A DNA stretch of 64,000 bases from Opitutaceae bacterium (GTDB lineage: Bacteria; Verrucomicrobiota; Verrucomicrobiia; Opitutales; Opitutaceae), in assembly GCA_028691845.1 (NCBI GenBank), contig JAQUYL010000015.1, positions 1 to 64,000 on the forward strand. The letters run 5' to 3'. Shown here piece by piece: positions 9,189 through 54,691 of this stretch. Position 1 is the first letter of the stretch, and each line of letters opens with the position of its first letter. The notes under the pieces are model-generated. The model worked only from the letters and a program-made list of their open reading frames with translations. It did not search any database and was not told the origin of the DNA. Both the position numbers and the translations under genes were made by a program.

Positions 9189-12100
9189 ATGGCTTTGTTT
9201 TCTACAACGCGGGTGCGAGTCATCCTTATTCTTGCCGTCGTTGCTGTCGCTGCCATGGCGCGGCAGGCAACGCCGCCGGGCTTGGCGGTGGTTAAATTGT
9301 TTAATCCATCGCCTGCTTTCATTGCAGGCGAACCGTATGCATTTGTCCGCAGCAAGGAAGGCGCACTTTTTGTGGCATCAAGCTGCCTGTCGATGTTTGA
9401 TGGCGCGAGTTGGCAGCAAATTCCGGTCCCAGGAGCCAAGCGGGTACTTGCGCTTGCAGCGGGAACTGCGCCGGAACGGATTTGGGTGGGGGCGGATGGG
9501 GCAATCGGATACCTTGAAAGGGACGCCAGAAACCAATGGCTGTTCGTTTCCCTCCTGCCTCAATTAAAGCAAGAGGGCGTCCCTGACTTGCTCGAAATAC
9601 ACCATGTGCATCCGACTGCCGATGGTGCTATTTTTGTATCCCGTTCCAGGGTTCTGCATTGGGATGGCAGTCGATTCCGAAGCTGGGATTTGCCGGCGCC
9701 GGCACGACTCTACGCCTTCTCTTCGGATGGCGACCTGTTCATCTATCGCCAGGGAACCGGGCTCCTGCGAATGGAAGAAACGGGGCCCAATCTGTTCCTG
9801 TCTCAGAATTTACTGCCTGTTCACGATAATCCGCTAATAGGATACTTCACGTTGGGAATCGGAAACGAATTCGCCGTATTTCAGCGAGGAGTGTGGCGGC
9901 GCACAGAGAATGAATGGATTCGTCTGGACGACGTTTCCAACATCCTGGCGGATGCGCGGGCAACCCACGCAACCCGGATTGACCGGACTACGGCTGCAAT
10001 CGCGACTTTCAGCAGCGGGGTCATTCTCCTGGCTGAAGACGGAGCCCTCCTGCGGATCGTCGACGGGAACAGCGGACTGTTAAGCGATACCGCCTCAAGT
10101 ATTTGGGCCGACACTGAAGAAAACCTCTGGATCGGCTTGGCCACCGGCATCGCTTGTCTGCGTAATACCTTGACCGAGTCTCTATTCGATCACCGGACAG
10201 GGCTGGGTGACGGAATTCAAAAGGCATTTCTTCATGAAAATCGTCCGGTATTCCTCACAACTCGCAGTCTTTACACGCTCCAGGACGGAAGACCCTCAGT
10301 GGTTCCACCCCTTCAGAAAATCGAATGGACCCTGCCAGAAGTGTGGGATGGGACAAGTATCGGGAATGAGATCTGGGTGGCTGCCACTGGCGGCCTCTGG
10401 CGCATATCCAATGAAAACACGCTATTGGTGTACGAGACACCTAACCAGGTTCCGCTGCTCACGAAGGCACAGGCGCTTCCGCAAGGTCTGGTTTTTTTTG
10501 ACAACGCCACCTGTCGCCTTATGCAGCCGCTAGCCTCCGGGGCGAGCACTCGCGAACTTTATCGTGAGTTGGACAGCATTCCTGTCTCAGTGGTCGAGGA
10601 AGATGATGGATCGGCCCTCTGGGTTTCGACTGAAACAGGCAACGTTTCCCGATTGCTTTGGAGCAAAGAGGATGGGCGGCCCAACCTTCGGCTTGGACGC
10701 CGCTATTCACTCGGCCCGGCGACGTCTTCATCCAAACAGTCACGACTCACTTCGCTCTCCGGAACGATTGTCGCCTTTGCCGGAGACAACATCCTGACTT
10801 ATTCTGACGCGAGTGAACAATTTGCGCCACTTGCCGGTTTCGAATACTTTAGAGGAGTCGCCGCAGCTTCGTTGGAGCATTCGGATCACGGGTTTTGGCT
10901 GGTGCAAAACAGGGGACTTGGGACGAACGGCCCGGCCGCCGTAATCCGGGTCCAACACAAGCCCGACGGCAAGGGTATGGATTGGGCGCCGATCGACATT
11001 CCCGGTCTAGACCATATCGGATCGTCCACCAACCTGAGCCTGACCAATGACAATGGCGGCGAGACCCTTTGGATCGCCGGGGCCTACGGGATGCTGCGGC
11101 ACGAATTCGGGAAATCGCGGATCGGCTCCCAACAAACACCCAGCCTGGGGTTGCATAAAATACGGATCACCGCGAATCGAGAGCCGGTTTCTGCGCTAGA
11201 ACACGGCGCTCGGTTTTCGCCCGGCGTGAACGAGCTTCGCTTCATTTTCCCGGCCGCCGGCGCTGTGAGGGGGGAAACGATCTTTTATGAGACCAAACTC
11301 GAAGGTGTGGAGACCGAATGGTCGCAGCCGAAGAACCTCCCTGAGCGGGAATTTACGGGCCTGTCTGCGGGATCCTACGTCTTCATGGCTCGAGCCATTG
11401 ATCGTTTCGGGCGCCGTGGCCCAATCGTCCGCTATTCCTTCGTCCTTGAAGCGCCATGGTACCGCACCGCTCCAACCATGGTCGGACTGGTGCTTGGCGC
11501 AGCGCTCGTCTTGTATGCCGGTGTCCGGTGGCGGCTGCGGCAGCTCCAGCGCCAGGCAGAGCGGCTCAACCGTCTCGTCGGCGAGCGCACGCAGGAGTTG
11601 CTTCTTTCCAACACAGCCAAGTCGGAGTTTCTCGAAAACATCAGCCACGAGATTCGCAATCCGCTCAATGGCATCGTCGGGATGATCGATCTGGTGACCC
11701 AGCAGAACCCTGAATGGAATTCGAACGAACATTTGCGATCCCTCAAGGAGTGCAGTGCGAGCTTGGTCCGTGTGTTTAACGACGTGCTTAATTTTTCCAA
11801 GCTAGAGTACGGCTATGTCACGGTCGACCAGCATCCCTTTTCGCTGACGACCCTGATCGAATCGGTGCGGGCGACATTTCTGGACCAGGTCACCAGGCAA
11901 GGCGGCAAGCTCAGTGTCAGGATACCGGCCAGCTTTCCTGACTCCTTCAATGGCGACGAAGCGAAGATCCGGACCGTTCTCAACAACTTCGTCGGCAACG
12001 CCGTCAAATACGCCCCCGGAACGGCAATCGAAATCACAGTGTCAGGAACCGAATCCGGCGAAGATAAACTGAACCTGCTCATCGAGGTGGCAGACGGCGG

Positions 12101-13094
12101 CCCCGGGGTCCCTCCCGAGGAGCAGGAGGTGATTTTTCAGAAGTTCGTCCGCGGCAGCCGGGCGCGGGCGACGAAAGTGACCGGGTCTGGCATCGGGCTG
12201 GCGACCTGTCGTATTTTGGCCAACCTGATGGGTGGAGGCGTCGGAATCGAGAGCGAACAGGGGAAGGGCGCGATCTTTTTTCTAAAACTTCCGGTGGGGA
12301 TAGCACAAAAGCCTGCCCCCACCCTGCCGGCCGCGGTTCTGCCGGAGCCCGGACAACGTCGGGCGCTCATAATCGAGGATCAACATTTCAACCAGGTTGC
12401 GCTCGCTGCTGTCGTCCGCCGACTTGGCTATGAGGTCGAATGCGTCTTCAACGCCAGCGAAGCCGCGGCCGTTCTGGCGCAGCATGCCTTCGAACTCATA
12501 TTCCTTGACCTGAAGCTGCCAGGAACGAAAGGGACGGAAATCGCCCGTTTCATCCGCTCCTCGCCCTCCGGCCGCGAGGTGGTGCTTATCGGAGTCAGCG
12601 CCAGTGACAGCCGGGAGGCGGCCCAACGCTGCCTGGCGTCGGGGATGGACGCGTTTCTCCTCAAGCCGGTGAGCGACGACCTCGTTAGCGCCACAGTCCA
12701 CGCCGTGCTGGCACGACGATCTTCCGGTACGGAACCCGGAGCTGCTCTCAATTTCTCAACTCTTGAACTCGTCGCGCGCAGCGCACCCGGTGGCATGGCC
12801 GAAGCCGTCCGCCTATATCTCACCGCCCTGGATGGCGAGATCGACGCACTCGAACAGGCCGTACGGACGGGCAAGAAGGAGGACATCGCGGCACAGGCAC
12901 ATCGAATATGTTCCCATGCCGCTGTTGTGAGCGCAGAAGAAATGGGCCGAACGGCGAAGGAACTGGAAACAGCGGCTGGGGCGGGTCAAATCGAGCAGTC
13001 CGCAAAGGCCCTGGAGAAAATCAGGAAACTGGCAGCCGATCTCTCCCAACGCCTTAAGGAACGGAACCAAGCGGTCGATCCGGAATCCGGGTGA
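9189..13094 (+). CDS. Hybrid sensor histidine kinase 1 (beta-propeller, Y_Y_Y, HisKA, HATPase, REC, HPt)
   Basis: About 1301 residues from the ATG at 9189, chosen because a signal/anchor helix (RVILILAVVAVAAMA) follows. Order: periplasmic two-component-regulator propeller with repeated WxG-type blades to about residue 650; Y_Y_Y Ig-like domain; transmembrane helix (TMVGLVLGAALVLYAGV); HisKA with phospho-acceptor His820 in ISHEIRNPLNG; HATPase with N box NNFVGNAVKYA, intact G1 ADGGPGVP and G2 GSGIGLATC; receiver with acceptor Asp1107 in FLDLKLPG; and an HPt-like helix bundle with His1238 in AHRICSH. It thus carries a full phosphorelay in one chain. It probably signals to the convergent response regulator, which overlaps its last 41 bp. 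Confidence 0.9.
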   Translation: MALFSTTRVRVILILAVVAVAAMARQATPPGLAVVKLFNPSPAFIAGEPYAFVRSKEGALFVASSCLSMFDGASWQQIPVPGAKRVLALAAGTAPERIWVGADGAIGYLERDARNQWLFVSLLPQLKQEGVPDLLEIHHVHPTADGAIFVSRSRVLHWDGSRFRSWDLPAPARLYAFSSDGDLFIYRQGTGLLRMEETGPNLFLSQNLLPVHDNPLIGYFTLGIGNEFAVFQRGVWRRTENEWIRLDDVSNILADARATHATRIDRTTAAIATFSSGVILLAEDGALLRIVDGNSGLLSDTASSIWADTEENLWIGLATGIACLRNTLTESLFDHRTGLGDGIQKAFLHENRPVFLTTRSLYTLQDGRPSVVPPLQKIEWTLPEVWDGTSIGNEIWVAATGGLWRISNENTLLVYETPNQVPLLTKAQALPQGLVFFDNATCRLMQPLASGASTRELYRELDSIPVSVVEEDDGSALWVSTETGNVSRLLWSKEDGRPNLRLGRRYSLGPATSSSKQSRLTSLSGTIVAFAGDNILTYSDASEQFAPLAGFEYFRGVAAASLEHSDHGFWLVQNRGLGTNGPAAVIRVQHKPDGKGMDWAPIDIPGLDHIGSSTNLSLTNDNGGETLWIAGAYGMLRHEFGKSRIGSQQTPSLGLHKIRITANREPVSALEHGARFSPGVNELRFIFPAAGAVRGETIFYETKLEGVETEWSQPKNLPEREFTGLSAGSYVFMARAIDRFGRRGPIVRYSFVLEAPWYRTAPTMVGLVLGAALVLYAGVRWRLRQLQRQAERLNRLVGERTQELLLSNTAKSEFLENISHEIRNPLNGIVGMIDLVTQQNPEWNSNEHLRSLKECSASLVRVFNDVLNFSKLEYGYVTVDQHPFSLTTLIESVRATFLDQVTRQGGKLSVRIPASFPDSFNGDEAKIRTVLNNFVGNAVKYAPGTAIEITVSGTESGEDKLNLLIEVADGGPGVPPEEQEVIFQKFVRGSRARATKVTGSGIGLATCRILANLMGGGVGIESEQGKGAIFFLKLPVGIAQKPAPTLPAAVLPEPGQRRALIIEDQHFNQVALAAVVRRLGYEVECVFNASEAAAVLAQHAFELIFLDLKLPGTKGTEIARFIRSSPSGREVVLIGVSASDSREAAQRCLASGMDAFLLKPVSDDLVSATVHAVLARRSSGTEPGAALNFSTLELVARSAPGGMAEAVRLYLTALDGEIDALEQAVRTGKKEDIAAQAHRICSHAAVVSAEEMGRTAKELETAAGAGQIEQSAKALEKIRKLAADLSQRLKERNQAVDPESG

Positions 13095-48205: not shown

Positions 48206-48970
48206 TCAAGCCGCAGAGATGGCCTTGGAATTGATCACTGGTTGCGCACCTTGATGAACTCCGACCAGCGGGAATGAAAAAACGGTCAGCCCCTTGCGGG
48301 AGATCAGTCTCAAATTGGAGCCGTGGGCGCGAAGACACATTCTGGCGATGTAGAGGCCCAGCCCGCAGGAACCGGGTTTACGCGCAGATCTCCCATTGAC
48401 CGCCTTATGGCGAAGATCAAAAAGATAGCGTAAATAATCCTCCGATATACCCGGACCGCCGTTGGCCACCGACAATATCCATGTCGCACCCCGCACGGGT
48501 GCCAACCGTACCCTGACCCACGTGCCTTGGGAATACAAAGCCGCATTGCTCACCAGATTGAACATGGCATGTCTGATGAGCGTCGGGGAAAACGTGCACC
48601 ACATGACATCCGGCAGTCGAATGATAAACTGCGGTATCTCCCTCCATACACTTGGTTCGCGCAGCAGGCTCCGCACAAACGCAGCAAGATCTCCCCGCTT
48701 GAAATCCTTGACGCCCTCCCTGTTCAGATACAGCAGCCGCATGCCGCTGAGCAGGTCCGTGACCTGCGCCATGCTGGCGCGCAATCGCCGGTAGCTTTCC
48801 TGCCGTTCCTGTTCGTTCCTCGACAAGCCGGCCAGATCCACCGCCATCGTCAATCCGCACATGGCATTGGCGAGATCGTGTTGCAGCAATCCCGGAAGAA
48901 GGGCCCTCTCCTCCGAGATCCGACGTTCTTCCTCCAGTGCTAGAAAAAGGGTTTCTTCAAGAGAGGGCAT
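48206..48970 (-). CDS. Small cytoplasmic histidine-kinase-like protein
   Basis: About 254 residues from the ATG at 48970 (48988 is an alternative). No membrane or sensor domain is present. An N-terminal helical part includes a potential phospho-acceptor His in LLQHDLANAMCGLTM, an HDLxN variant of the H box. The C-terminal HATPase domain has N box NLVSNAALYSQG, G1 NGGPGIS (the usual Asp is replaced by Asn) and G2 GSCGLGLYIARMCL. Its start overlaps the stop of the 94-residue orphan by 14 bp, so it is translationally coupled to the YcaO-like unit. It may take its input from those proteins. Confidence 0.78.
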   Translation of the reverse strand: MPSLEETLFLALEEERRISEERALLPGLLQHDLANAMCGLTMAVDLAGLSRNEQERQESYRRLRASMAQVTDLLSGMRLLYLNREGVKDFKRGDLAAFVRSLLREPSVWREIPQFIIRLPDVMWCTFSPTLIRHAMFNLVSNAALYSQGTWVRVRLAPVRGATWILSVANGGPGISEDYLRYLFDLRHKAVNGRSARKPGSCGLGLYIARMCLRAHGSNLRLISRKGLTVFSFPLVGVHQGAQPVINSKAISAA

Positions 48971-49241
48971 ATTCCACCTGTGGCGCAAAGCGGTAGACCC
49001 CGGGAAGTCCCGTCCGCAATGCCTCCAATGCCTCTGCCGCTGCGGTCCAGGCCTCTTGTCGCACTGCCAGCATCAATTCGATGCCGTCTCGCGGAGAAAT
49101 AACACACTCACTGATGGTGGAACGCAGGACGTCCAGCGCCGACTTCTTGTCTTTGCGGGTGACACAATCTTGGATCTGCCAAAGGGTCGATCCGATGGGG
49201 GGAATTGCCGGCGATAACTCTGTGGTGGGTGAAGCAATCAT
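48957..49241 (-). CDS. 94-residue orphan protein between YcaO-like and kinase-like genes
   Basis: I do not recognise it. From the ATG at 49241 (5 bp after the ycaO-like stop) it encodes 94 residues, mostly predicted helix, including LWQIQDCVTRKDKKSALDVL and AVRQEAWTAAAEALEALR. The stop at 48957 lies inside the start region of the kinase-like gene. Tight packing on both sides argues that it is real and works with its neighbours. Three acidic-flanked Cys/Ser residues are present but no known motif. It might be a helical adaptor or an HPt-like partner of the kinase, although no HPt His motif is visible. Confidence 0.6.
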   Translation of the reverse strand: MIASPTTELSPAIPPIGSTLWQIQDCVTRKDKKSALDVLRSTISECVISPRDGIELMLAVRQEAWTAAAEALEALRTGLPGVYRFAPQVEYALS

Positions 49242-49246
49242 GGCGT

Positions 49247-50131
49247 CTACCAGAAGAAAAAGGAGCATTGCGGATCCAAAAAATCCCGCGAAGGCATCTC
49301 CGGCACAACCCGCCAGACCGTGGTATATTTTGACCATGGTCCGATAATTTCACCGTCAAACAACACCGACCATGCCGCCTGACGGCGCGGTTTCCGATCA
49401 AATACCCTGCGGAGGAACTCCCCGTGTCCTTCCTCCCCCGCGAAATAAAGACAGCGGCGTTCAAATGCATTGGGAACCTCAAGCGCGGCATTACGCAACT
49501 TGTAGAAACTGACCACAAACTCATTGCGGGCGAGCTCTACCGCGGCCCGCGCCACAGCTGTGCGAAAACTGGAACCGGCGGAATAGCCGTAGCTCACATG
49601 TCCGGCGGCAGAACGGCGGAAGAGAATTGCCACCTCGCCTATGCCCGCATTGTGCTCCAGACGCACCGCCGTCATTCCAAACAGGGCGTCGCCGACGACC
49701 GAGGCATTGAGGTGTCCCGACCACCACGACACCAGTGCCCAGCGTTCCAAGGCCTCGAAATAGGCCCTTTTTCTGGCCTGGTACTTGAAGAAACCGGGAA
49801 ACGCCGCCATCCCGTTGGTCGAATAATCGACATCAAAGCGGTACTTCACGCGTTCCGGCCCCTGCGAAGCCGAGTAAAAAGCCCACCGTTCCAACGCCTC
49901 GGAAATCGCCATATGGCGCGCGACTTGCGGTGAGTCGCTGGAGCCCGTGCCATCGGCGTTCCCATACACGCTGGCCGTTTGCTTTGACGTCACCAAGCCG
50001 GACGCTAGAAACGCGTTCGCTTGATAGGTCTGCTTGCCCATCACCTCGACCGAACCCGAGGAGATGCGCTCGATCGGCCCCCCTTCACTAGAAAAAATAT
50101 CGCGATAATTTATCGGAGCTAGACTAAGCAT
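49247..50131 (-). CDS. Short YcaO-like ATP-binding protein
   Basis: 294 residues, assigned to the YcaO fold from the three characteristic Glu-rich segments in order: ARHMAISEALERWAFYSA near residue 72, RAYFEALERWALVSWWSG near 121, and FRTAVARAAVELARNEFVV near 189. These hold the Mg-ATP ligands of the family. YcaO enzymes use ATP to activate peptide backbones (azoline, thioamide or amidine formation) in RiPPs or MCR modification. This copy is shorter than typical YcaOs and lacks the C-terminal PxPxP tail, ending in FFFW. No E1-like or TfuA partner is adjacent. It leads a three-gene coupled unit downstream of a secreted peptide gene. Confidence 0.7.
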   Translation of the reverse strand: MLSLAPINYRDIFSSEGGPIERISSGSVEVMGKQTYQANAFLASGLVTSKQTASVYGNADGTGSSDSPQVARHMAISEALERWAFYSASQGPERVKYRFDVDYSTNGMAAFPGFFKYQARKRAYFEALERWALVSWWSGHLNASVVGDALFGMTAVRLEHNAGIGEVAILFRRSAAGHVSYGYSAGSSFRTAVARAAVELARNEFVVSFYKLRNAALEVPNAFERRCLYFAGEEGHGEFLRRVFDRKPRRQAAWSVLFDGEIIGPWSKYTTVWRVVPEMPSRDFLDPQCSFFFW

Positions 50132-50201
50132 ACGCAGATGTGTTCAAGATGATCAGGCAACTTGGGAACCAATTGCGCAGTCCTGTCCCCGCCCGCTGTT
50201 T

Positions 50202-50390
50202 CTATTGCAGAATTCCACAGGGGAGGCCTGGGTTCTCATCGAATACAGGGCCGTGCGCATCGATGGAGGATTTCATCGATTGATCCGCGGGATAGCGGAT
50301 GGTATCGAATTTATCCGCGGCGCGGGTTGCCCCAACGGCAAGGAACATGGTAGAGACCAAGGCGAATAGGAGTGATGTGAGTTTTTTCAT
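50202..50390 (-). CDS. 62-residue secreted peptide upstream of the YcaO-like gene
   Basis: From ATG 50390 the first 25 or so residues form a textbook Sec signal ([20 protein letters not shown], then ATRA-AD). The mature peptide would be about 37 residues ([20 protein letters not shown], then [18 protein letters not shown]) with a single Cys near the C-terminus. It is on the same strand as and 70 bp before the YcaO-like gene, and divergent from hybrid kinase 2, with only 85 bp between their starts. It resembles no family I know. It could be a signal for the kinase, a substrate of the YcaO-like protein, or an unrelated small secreted protein. No strong ribosome site is visible. Confidence 0.55.
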
Positions 50391-50475
50391 GACGTTGTCA
50401 GCATACATGAAGCGGGAAACTGTTGCCACTTCGTCGCTTACCTTTCTCAAGGTACGTCGGTACCGGATAAAGGGT
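50391..50475. promoter_or_regulatory. 85-bp divergent promoter region of the secreted-peptide/YcaO unit and hybrid kinase 2
   Basis: The short gap must hold control sequences for both directions. GGTAC occurs twice close together (around 50451-50463, the second as the palindrome CGGTACCG), a possible operator. No clear -10/-35 pair was identified. Confidence 0.4.
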
Positions 50476-53400
50476 ATGCGGCTAATTCTGCTGACGTTCG
50501 GACTCTTCTTAATCCACGGCCTCAACGCCATGCCACTCGAGGAAAGCCCGATCCGCTTCGACTTCACTGCCGCGCAACTCAACAGCGAACCGAATATCTG
50601 GCAGATCACTCAGACAACCGAAGGACAGGTAATCATTGGGGGGCGGCAGCTTGGATTCTACGAAGGAAACCAATGGGAATTTCTGCCCCAGCCGCAAACG
50701 CAAGCCATCCGCGCATTGCTGCCGGTCGGCAATACGCTGTGGGTCGCGTCCGCCAATGAAATCGGCAGGCTGACGCTGCCGTTGACCAACCGCAGCGTTT
50801 ATCAGCCTCTCCTGGTTCCCGGGCTCAATCATGTCGGTGAAATCTGGCATCTCGCCATGGCGGACGGCGAACTCGTGGCCACCACCAAGGATAAAGTTTG
50901 GTTCATTGATCCGGAGACGGGACAGGCACATCACTCTGTGCTCCCCACCGAGCAGCGCCTCTTTCTGCTCACCCACGGCGACAAACTGATCGTGGCGCCT
51001 CTGGGCAAGGCTCTCTGGGAGGTCCGTCGCGAGCAGGTCATCCCGATGGCGAATCCGCTTCCCAACAAGTCGGATGCGCAGTGGATTTGGTGCAACGACG
51101 ATTTTGTTCTGACGACCCGTGCGCTTTACCGGAAAACCACTGGCGGCTATCAAGTCATCACTGGAGTCGAGGATCTTTCCAGCGCCATCATCACTTCAGC
51201 CACCCAGTGGGGCGACCGCATCGCTGTCTCCACCGCCACCCGAGGGCTGGCGATCATGAATCCTCAGACCGGACAGGTGGATTTCGTGACCCGGGCCTCC
51301 GGGTTACCGACCCTAGTTACGCTTAAAACCTATGTGGACGCTTCCGACCGGCTTTGGGTCGGCACCAACCAAGGCATCAGCCTGTTCGAACCTTTCACGA
51401 CTGGCCATCGCCTGGCCGTAACAGATCCACCCGTAGGTGCGCTACGGCAAAATGGTCTCATTGTGAGCTACGAGAGCCATCTGGACTACTACCGCAGCGG
51501 TGGAAGCGTGACCTCCCATCCGCCGGCGTGGTTCCTCGGCACGACGGCGCACGGTCCCGCCATGGGCTTCTGGGGCAGGACCAGGATTGGATCCGAGGAG
51601 TTTCAGACTCCCGGCAACAGGGTCAGCGCAATCGCTGAACTGCCCAATGAACGCTACCTTGCTGTTGTGAGCGTCCATCTCTACGAAATCGACTACCGCG
51701 CTAGCACCGTCCGGCTTATCGAGGATGCCCCTGGTAATTTCACCGACGTCACGTGCATTGGTAGCACCATCTGGGGGGGCTCTCTCTCAGGCGAACTTTA
51801 CAAAGCCGACACAACTTCGCCGATCAGGTTTTCGCCAGTCGCAAAACTATCCGACTCCACTCCGACCCTCCTCGCCCGCCTTGGCGGCACTCTCATTGTC
51901 TTCACCAATAACAGCGTCCTCTACTATGACGATTCCCTGAAACCGGTCGGCCATACCCAAGGAATCAAGAACCCCAGGCTGGCTGAAGCCACCGACTGCA
52001 CCTGGCTCGCCGGTGAACAGGATGGGCAGCTCAGGCTTGGACGCCTGCGCAAGACAGGTCATACTGTCAGTTGGGAAACCGTCGAAGCCAAGGGGCTCGC
52101 CGCGCTTGACAAGGTCAGCCATCTTTCGGCAAGCGATGATCTGCTGACGATCTGCAGCGGCTCGGCCATTCTCGAACTGAGCACGGCCGAACTCAGACCT
52201 GAATACCGGCTGACACCGCCAACGCTTCGCTTTGTTTTTCCGGGTTCACAAGCTGAAACCGGTCTCGACGCTCTGCCGACTGAATTACCCGCCGGCCAAA
52301 GCACCGTGACCTTCACTGCAAGCCAGGCGTTCGACGAATTTGGGGAGAAACCGGCCTACGAACGGCGGCTGCTTCCGACCGACACAAACTGGACCCGGAC
52401 CAGCACGTCCGAAACCGTGCGCTATTCTTCCCTGTCGCCCCGAACCTACACCTTGGAGAGAAGAGCCACCCATCTCGGCCAGATCGGACCTGTGAAGTCC
52501 TACCGCTTTACGCTGCCGCCCCCATGGTACTATACAAACCCGGCCATCGCCGCCTATGCTTCCCTAGCGATCCTGATCGGCATCGGTCTGACCACCTTGC
52601 GCACGCGGCAAATCCAGCGGCGGAACATCGAACTGGAGGCACTGATCCAGGAACGCACCCGTGAACTGGCCAAGGCCAGCGCCGCCAAATCAGAGTTTGT
52701 CGCGTCGATGTCGCACGAGATCCGTAATCCAATGAACGGCGTCATCGGGCTGATCGGCATGCTCAAGGAGATGGATCCCCCACCAAAACAGCGGCATACA
52801 CTGAAACTGCTGCAAAATTGCGCCGAACAACTGCGCTGCACGGTCGACGACATTCTCGACTTTTCCAAGATTGAGGCCGGGGACGTCAGCCTGCAAATCA
52901 CTGACTTTGACCTGGCGGAAACCATTGAAGCCGCAGCTATCACGGTCGATCCCGCTCGGACCAGGATTCGACTCCTCTCCCCCATCCCGCCTGATATTCG
53001 AGTCCGGGGCGACTGCGGGAAAGTCCGGCAGATTCTCGCCAATTTCCTCGGCAATGCCCTCAAATACGGAATCCCGTCCGAGGCACGCATCAACACCATT
53101 CTCACTCCTCGGGATGAGCAGCTAACCGTTACGGTGGGCGTGACCAGTTCCGGCCCTACCATCGAAAAGGACACCCTCGATAAGCTCTTTGAAAGCTTCA
53201 CGCGCGGAGACGACGCCAAGCAACGCAACATCCGGGGCACCGGCTTGGGCTTGGCCATCTGTCGACGCTATGCGCTGGCCATGGGCGGCAATGTCGGTGC
53301 GGTGAGCGCGAATGGCGAGACCACGTTTTATTTCACCGCGAGTTTCGCCTGCCTGGGCGCGGCGGTGTTCGCGAAGGCACCTGCGTCCACGCGGGCTCTT

Positions 53401-54066
53401 CCGGCACGGGCTCTGGCAATCGAGGACGAGGATTACAACCGCATCGTCCTCGGGAATATCCTTGAGAAAATGAACTACACGGTCGACTGGGCCACCACTG
53501 GAGTCGAAGCGATCCGCTTGGCCTGCGAAAATGGGTACGACGTCATTCTCACCGACTATCGCCTGCCGGACACCAACGGGGTCGCCCTCACCCGGGAGCT
53601 CCTGCGCCTTTGCCCGGAGCCCAAACCCGCCGTCTTTGCCGTCACGGCCTACTCGACCAAGGAGCGCCGCGAGGAATGCCTGGGTGCAGGCATGGCCGGA
53701 TTCATCAGCAAGCCCATCACCATTGAAAAACTTCGTGGTGCCCTGAACGCCTGGGGCGAGACGCACCTCGGCAAGATCTCGCTTGAAGTCACCCAGCTGC
53801 CGCCGATGCCCGCCGCGGCTGCCGATCCGCTGCAAGCCATTCGCCAAGCATGGAGCGCCGTCAAATCCACCGCGCAAACCGACCGGAAGTCAGCCGCCTA
53901 TCTCGCTCATAAACTCAACAATCTTTGCCGCGCTAATAATTTCCCGGACCTCGGCGACCAGCTCGAACTGCTGGAGGGGGTCCTCGAACGCGGCGAAGCA
54001 ATCGAAAGGTTCGTTCAAGTCATCGAGAATCTCCTCTATCCGCCTACAAATGATCGACCGTTGTGA
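50476..54066 (+). CDS. Hybrid sensor histidine kinase 2 (beta-propeller, Y_Y_Y, HisKA, degenerate HATPase, REC, HPt)
   Basis: About 1196 residues from the ATG at 50476, chosen because a signal helix ([17 protein letters not shown]) follows. The domain order is the same as kinase 1: periplasmic propeller, Y_Y_Y domain, TM ([18 protein letters not shown]), HisKA with His747 in [15 protein letters not shown], HATPase, receiver with Asp1027 in ILTDYRLPD, HPt with His1145 in [13 protein letters not shown]. The HATPase keeps the N box ([10 protein letters not shown]) and G2 (GTGLGLAIC), but its G1 box reads VTSSGPTI and lacks the Asp that binds adenine. It may be a weak kinase or mainly a phosphatase/scaffold. 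Its last 23 bp overlap the convergent regulator. Confidence 0.88.
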
Positions 54067-54691
54067 ACCCGGTCTTGAGGGCGTAGGCTTGGAGTTCCTG
54101 CGCGGTGTGCAAGTTCAGTTTCGTCATGACGTTGCGCCGATGGGTTTTTACTGTGTCAACGCTGAGTCCCAGGGCTGAGGCGAGCTCGGCATCGGCGTAC
54201 CCCGTGCCAAGATGCCGCAGGAGTTCCTGCTCCCGCGGCGAAAGCAGTTTCGCAAAACTGTCCGGCGCTTTTGCCATCTCCCGCCGTTTGATCTCATAGC
54301 GCGGACTGTAAAACGATCCCCCGGCAGCTACCACCTGGATGGCCGTTAGCAACATCTGCGGTTCATCGTCCTTGTGCACGAAGCCCTGCGCAAAACTGCG
54401 GTTCACGCGATGAACGATATAATCATCGCAGGACGAGGAAAGCAGCAGCACCGGAATGGCTACATTGGATTTGTTCAATTCCTCGACAAATTCAATCCCG
54501 TCGCCGTCAGGCAGCCGAATGTCCAGAAGCAGGAGATCGACCATGGTCAGACCATCGAGCAATTTTCTCACTTCCGCCAGCGATCCGGCCTCCAGCACCA
54601 CTTCGCCCTTGCAGTCTTCAACAAGAAGCCGGCGCAAAAGCGCTCGAAACATGATCTGGTCTTCGACGATCGCAAATTTCATTGAAATCAA
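54044..54691 (-). CDS. NarL/LuxR-family response regulator 2
   Basis: 215 residues (ATG 54682 is an alternative start). The receiver has an ED acidic pair near residue 10, acceptor Asp57 in [13 protein letters not shown] and Lys in GFVHKDDEP. The LuxR HTH ([20 protein letters not shown] through [20 protein letters not shown]) gives DNA binding. The gene converges on hybrid kinase 2 with 23 bp of shared coding sequence, the same geometry as regulator 1 at 13054-13722. Regulator and kinase pairs 1 and 2 are therefore paralogous modules. Confidence 0.9.

Follow-up and report, generated by a model that had tools for sequence, protein, structure and literature searches.

We identified a locus in an Opitutaceae bacterium that is probably an autoinducing RiPP peptide-signal module, composed of a YcaO-modified peptide, a receptor of the HTCS type, a regulator and an operator. 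It lies at positions 48206–54691 of a 64,000-nucleotide stretch (positions 1 to 64,000 of contig JAQUYL010000015.1, assembly GCA_028691845.1), referred to here as the window. Sequence comparison supports a conserved gene module, a precursor family with a leader and repeated cores, the fold and active site of a YcaO enzyme, the fold of the receptor and a positioned operator. On balance, we think it likely that such loci form a new class of cell-cell signalling, in which RiPP pheromones, their cores hypervariable and in some cases present in several copies, would be modified by YcaO and read by HTCS-type double-propeller kinases with NarL-type operator feedback, and which would be widespread in the Opitutales (Verrucomicrobiota) with orthogonal copies per genome.

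All six genes marked out in the first-pass annotation of this DNA lie where it had placed them (Table 1), and the coordinates bear out the 5-bp gap and 14-bp overlap it had reported among the YcaO-like, orphan and kinase-like genes. Its arrangement of two divergent arms holds for the hybrid kinase but not for the regulator, which is not co-directional with the kinase: it is encoded on the minus strand and runs towards the kinase gene, the two tails overlapping by 23 bp.

Table 1. Features of the peptide-YcaO-kinase locus, in window coordinates
Feature	Position	Strand	Length	Remarks
Precursor peptide gene	50202-50390	-	62 aa	
Precursor leader	50304..50390	-	aa 1-29	Basic N-terminal start, then hydrophobic stretch
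Precursor variable C-terminal (core) part	50202..50303	-		Cys-bearing in 84/88 cores; core units in tandem in several relatives
Stand-alone YcaO enzyme	49247-50131	-	294 aa	PF02624, fold, conserved glutamates
Orphan, between ycaO and small kinase	48957-49241	-	94 aa	5-bp gap to ycaO
Small soluble histidine kinase	48206-48970	-	254 aa from ATG	14-bp overlap with orphan; H-box HDLAN, HATPase_c
Hybrid sensor kinase	50476-54066	+	1196 aa	Double propeller and Y_Y_Y sensor, HisKA, HATPase_c, REC, Hpt-like C-terminus
Response regulator	54044-54682	-		Receiver and LuxR/NarL-type DNA-binding domain
Candidate operator site 2, TACCTTGAGAAAGGTA	50439..50454	.		Centre 56 bp upstream of peptide ATG
Candidate operator site 1, TACCCTTTATCCGGTA	50461..50476	.		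Centre 78 bp upstream of peptide ATG; touches kinase start codon

YcaO homologues were found in 87 of the 252 genomes of the family, spread over 28 of its 49 genera. At the level of the order, 41 of 373 genomes had one, and a phylum-wide sample contained homologues in the Opitutales alone. Approximately 90–100 non-redundant loci were gathered, with a few near-duplicates possibly left among them. A propeller hybrid kinase is divergent from ycaO in 91 of the 92 loci with at least 2.7 kb of upstream sequence, and a LuxR/NarL-type regulator lies near the module in 57 of the 61 loci that could be judged. Any one of the window's flanking genes, by contrast, is common to at most 2 of 53 loci outside the window clade, and this retention of kinase and regulator linkage while the flanks differ points to a transferable four-gene unit. 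Neighbourhood conservation, on which the earlier proposal had been made to depend, is far above chance. As a six-gene system, however, that proposal was too wide: peptide, YcaO, propeller hybrid kinase and regulator are conserved, whereas the orphan and small kinase are limited to the nearest clades. G030, G142, G283, G330 and G032 each contain two different copies of the module or of YcaO; the precursors of the two copies differ in G030 and G142, as expected for separate signal channels. One family member (L170) sits in a contig binned as Bdellovibrionales, which may reflect a binning error or transfer.

To the upstream side of ycaO, a leader profile built from small ORFs matched in 81 of 91 loci, or ~90%; more divergent precursors were picked out by eye beyond the profile matches. 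Among nine close relatives, identity is 64% in the leader versus 28% in the core, and third codon positions account for most of the nucleotide differences in the leader. Cys is present in 84 of the 88 hypervariable cores, with Pro preceding the last Cys in 49. Multi-core RiPP precursors are typified by several cores behind a single leader, and several relatives carry such repeats: KSSAFSELPCQFS occurs five times in the L053 precursor, AFCDTVCNF four times in L050, SSTGCAQLPCYHRDFN three times in L203 and DTCTWPCE three times in L158, while a variable unit is also present three times in L149 and L206 and twice in L069 and L038. The repeats, 7–27 residues in length, are longer than the longest repeat in 1000 shuffles of each precursor. 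RiPPs are recognized by a small precursor next to the enzyme, conserved in its leader and variable in its core; the family has such a precursor, and its core is probably modified by the adjacent YcaO. In Cerasicoccus, precursors end in WPCEV, YPCEV, YPTEV or FPTEV; because these ends swap C for T, the target site would accept Cys or Thr, as expected of a YcaO cyclisation target. The peptide had been annotated as secreted, and a classical Sec signal is likely for the one in the window, but the leaders of distant members (Cerasicoccus, Coraliomargarita) make a poor Sec signal, which counts against the signal reading and makes secretion uncertain for the family as a whole. Two precursor genes per locus were seen in L088, L110 and G158:C5, and in each pair one gene lacks Cys or lies on the downstream side of ycaO.

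The 294-aa protein is a genuine YcaO, short and stand-alone. It scores 31.2 bits against PF02624 (cut-off 25.7) when the protein is searched with hmmscan, and 35 of 41 relatives have a PF02624 match of their own at E 0.01. Searching the genome in six frames with PF02624 gave no match even though the protein itself was positive in hmmscan, which we treated as a limit of sensitivity; because a PDB sequence profile search gave no YcaO match for the protein, its membership rests on Pfam, fold and residues. An AlphaFold (AF2) model built with 63 sequences (pLDDT 90) aligned to solved structures in VIA-align with Z scores of 17.3 for McbD, 16.7 for M. kandleri YcaO and 16.6 for the heterocyclase 4v1v, and the YcaOs of M. 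jannaschii and E. coli were also among the matches. All YcaO entries fell at Z 12.1–17.3, every listed match at Z 12–17 was a YcaO and the first non-YcaO structure came at Z 5.8; the best Foldseek match was E. coli YcaO. Five glutamates (E78, E81, E126, E129 and E199) are kept in 62–63 of 63 aligned YcaOs. Profile alignment pairs E126, E129 and E199 with E. coli E199, E202 and E290, and placement by eye pairs the motif-1 residues E78/E81, in GTG..ISEALER, with E75/E78 of E. coli YcaO, all of which we take to be Mg/ATP binders. The window enzyme would probably activate backbone amides in an ATP-dependent manner. The YcaO-like identity on which the first-pass annotation had also staked its proposal therefore stands, with a Pfam score above the cut-off, a YcaO fold and conserved glutamates, and so does its remark that known partners are missing: there is no TfuA (PF07812) anywhere in the genome, and no E1-like/ThiF partner or dehydrogenase recurs across the surveyed neighbourhoods. 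Two features of the enzyme count against the signal reading, namely the replacement of the canonical third-helix Gln by an invariant Arg (R202) and the absence of a recognisable leader-binding domain in the YcaO. The C-terminus of the family is a conserved FFW, and the PxPxP tail is absent.

In an alignment of 41 YcaOs, the 36 that come with a standard leader all keep the six catalytic positions, and each of the five that lack such a leader has a change among them (L031 and L043, which are one lineage, L089, L070 and L049, where R130 is the sole altered catalytic position). Catalytic residues and standard leader thus change jointly, which, over few events, ties enzyme and precursor together. 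The same pattern bears on whether the YcaO modifies some other protein, the small peptide being an independent secreted regulator or kinase ligand. E. coli YcaO thioamidates ribosomal protein uL16 without TfuA (PMC13063428), and the window YcaO has no RRE-sized extra domain. Against a separate protein substrate, changes at the catalytic residues accompany every case in which the standard precursor is altered or absent, the YcaO always adjoins the peptide gene and is limited to the peptide-YcaO-kinase module, and the co-occurrence of leader and YcaO is strict, the leader being detected genome-wide in 77 of 87 genomes with YcaO versus 4 of 165 without, the latter four all weak matches (E 1e-3 to 1e-2). 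We consider such a substrate quite unlikely and favor the adjacent peptide as the target. In L031, L043, L089 and L070, the ycaO copies have lost catalytic glutamates (E129K, E81A, E126A and E129A), and these are possibly pseudo-enzymes or enzymes with changed chemistry; the precursors of L031, L043 and L089 are of a different type, ending in GGxIIIR/K or DGDIIIR.

In Pfam searches, the divergent hybrid kinase matched HisKA (7e-19), HATPase (3e-18), REC (2.3e-23) and Hpt (0.08). The model of its sensor (pLDDT 90) is a double propeller with a Y_Y_Y domain, closest to the Bacteroides HTCS sensors BT4663 (TM 0.71) and BT3049 (TM 0.70), and the protein has the order of parts that marks an HTCS, a periplasmic double propeller and Y_Y_Y followed by HK and REC. 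The fused AraC output of an HTCS is absent; the C-terminus is Hpt-like and the regulator is separate (REC 2.3e-16 and GerE 9e-14 in Pfam; NarP-like, 92 bits, in NCBIfam). Identity among close relatives is 41–46% for the sensor, 65–68% for the kinase, 80–84% for REC and 73–77% for YcaO, so the sensor evolves fastest, as expected if it tracks a changing ligand. HTCS sensors of known function bind sugars, which counts against the signal reading, and this could be an ordinary carbohydrate-sensing HTCS locus with the YcaO and small membrane peptide as chance neighbors. The sensor shares its fold with sensors of heparin and other glycans (BT4663, BT3049), and the window genome holds four further full-length propeller hybrid kinases. 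Chance neighbors are nonetheless very hard to reconcile with the divergent linkage described above, which extends over many genera with flanks that are not shared, and the module is without any glycan enzyme; we give this explanation very little credence and retain the peptide as the proposed ligand. A second full-length propeller hybrid kinase, 26–30% identical to the YcaO-linked one, lies at 9327–12692 of the window, and the search for leader peptides turned up none in its vicinity. The idea of a dedicated receptor lineage was dropped, as a tree of linked kinases and propeller paralogues shows no single clean clade, which also counts against the signal reading. Weak PADLOC matches fell on the HATPase and HTH portions and have the look of cross-matches between domains, and an Rfam search was without match.

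Upstream of ycaO, a 16-bp palindrome, TACC-N8-GGTA, reaches ~48 times the density that it has in the rest of the loci. Sites of the form TACY-N8-RGTA stand at a fixed distance from the peptide ATG, 55–57 bp in 18 loci and 78–79 bp in 9, and the window carries both positions, 22 bp apart. Site 1 is aligned in all eight close relatives, where it is of the TACCTTTTAAAAGGTA type. The NarL heptamer reads TACYYMT. NarL binds a 7-2-7 inverted repeat (PMC7419079), and the palindrome has this geometry, with 7-base elements inverted around a 2-bp centre. We predict that it is the operator of the linked NarL-type regulator. That it is present in no more than 29 of 78 loci (the window and 28 others) counts against the signal reading. 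Genomes with the TACCGG form contain up to 20 palindrome copies, versus control counts of 0–1; the copies of TACCGG-N4-CCGGTA outside the module (20 in G072, 11 in G163, 8 in G164, 7 in G011 and 6 in G058) are a candidate regulon. Several of these sites precede receiver-domain or hybrid-kinase genes, so control by the regulator may extend beyond its own locus, a lead only. We do not claim a defined regulon, given that the genes near sites in the TACCGG clade form a mixed list, with several receiver-domain genes, and that window-clade sites elsewhere are partly intergenic hairpins. In L264 (~4086) and L267 (~3947), TACCTTTTAAAAGGTA lies within longer perfect intergenic hairpins, sometimes in a 22-bp series.

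Taken as a signal module, the locus would make a short precursor whose hydrophobic leader is conserved and whose core, containing Cys, is hypervariable, and the stand-alone YcaO, with ATP, would activate the backbone amide beside the core Cys (or Thr/Ser) and close a ring, most likely of the thiazoline type or an amidine. The leader would be cleaved off and the peptide exported, probably via the general secretion route, which we propose because the module encodes no transporter or protease; the lack of a leader protease, dehydrogenase and exporter in the module counts against the signal reading. We infer that the mature peptide would bind the divergent hybrid kinase at its periplasmic double propeller, that phosphate would reach the NarL-type regulator by way of the REC and Hpt-like domains of the kinase and that the regulator, on the palindromic sites between the divergent genes, would alter expression of peptide, YcaO, kinase and other targets. 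It had been proposed earlier that the peptide is modified or monitored by the YcaO and perceived by the kinase; comparative evidence speaks well for modification and perception, and none was found for monitoring.

The modified peptide might instead be an antimicrobial that induces its own synthesis, as nisin does, with the kinase-regulator pair only a switch. RiPPs are often antimicrobials, and an arms race would fit both the hypervariable cores and the several divergent copies per genome (G030, G142, G283 and G330). Immunity, exporter or protease genes recur in no clade, however, and the receptor kinase and regulator are kept at nearly every locus, unusual for a plain bacteriocin cluster, making this unlikely. 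For a chalkophore-like metal binder whose metal complex is sensed by the kinase, one can point to CxxxC and PCxxPC arrangements in cores and to the thioamide or azoline ligands obtainable by YcaO-type amide activation. Yet a single Cys is all that many cores offer, in Cerasicoccus some have Thr in its place, the extreme turnover of cores is unlike a metal ligand set, and no TonB receptor or metal transporter recurs beside the module; we regard metal binding as decidedly improbable and a peptide signal as the better account of the locus.

Stand-alone YcaO RiPP clusters, the streptamidine family and bottromycin, are known (PMC8442711, PMC7136475). Like them, the module has a YcaO that adjoins a short precursor and is without an E1-like, ThiF or TfuA partner; unlike them, it combines a YcaO of ~294 aa with precursors whose leader is N-terminal and hydrophobic and whose Cys cores are repeated, has no other tailoring gene, carries its own receptor kinase and regulator and is found only in the Opitutales. 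With the TOMM/LAP cyclodehydratases McbD, LynD and SagD, the enzyme shares the fold (Z 16–17), the Mg/ATP glutamates and a Cys/Ser/Thr-bearing core, but it has no C/E1 or ThiF partner, dehydrogenase or C-terminal PxPxP, and ends in FFW. The absence of TfuA sets it apart from the thioamitide-type YcaO-TfuA pair. AgrD/AgrCA, ComX/ComP and nisin/NisRK each join a modified ribosomal peptide to a cognate kinase, a regulator and feedback on their own promoter, as proposed here, whereas the present module would use a YcaO modifier and an HTCS double-propeller receptor in a Gram-negative Opitutales host, with no dedicated processing exporter. Sensor fold and hybrid kinase layout are those of the Bacteroides HTCS proteins BT4663 and BT3049, but with a separate NarL-type regulator instead of a fused AraC domain and with linkage to peptide and YcaO instead of a polysaccharide locus. 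In the literature searched on YcaO with histidine kinases, Verrucomicrobia and pheromones, no earlier description was found. Stand-alone YcaO RiPPs and kinase-sensed peptide autoinducers are thus known, and their combination with an HTCS receptor, an operator and restriction to the Opitutales looks undescribed. If our reading is true, the Verrucomicrobiota use a peptide language for which dozens of signals and their matching receptors are predicted; propeller hybrid kinases, mostly taken for glycan sensors, can read peptides; and a minimal one-enzyme pathway is added to those of YcaO. The system is directly testable in the cultured hosts Cerasicoccus arenae, C. maritimus, C. frondis and Coraliomargarita sp. 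SDUM461004.

The two remaining genes of the window locus are clade-specific extras. The orphan, without a match in Pfam or NCBIfam, has a homologue (36–53% identical) only in five of the seven closest loci. Homologues of the small kinase (HATPase_c, 2.5e-14 in Pfam) lie downstream of ycaO both in the window clade and in that of L079–L083; other clades have either a larger HK-REC protein in this place or nothing. This larger kinase with a receiver domain was seen after ycaO in L040, L042, L056, L063, L068, L069 and L088.
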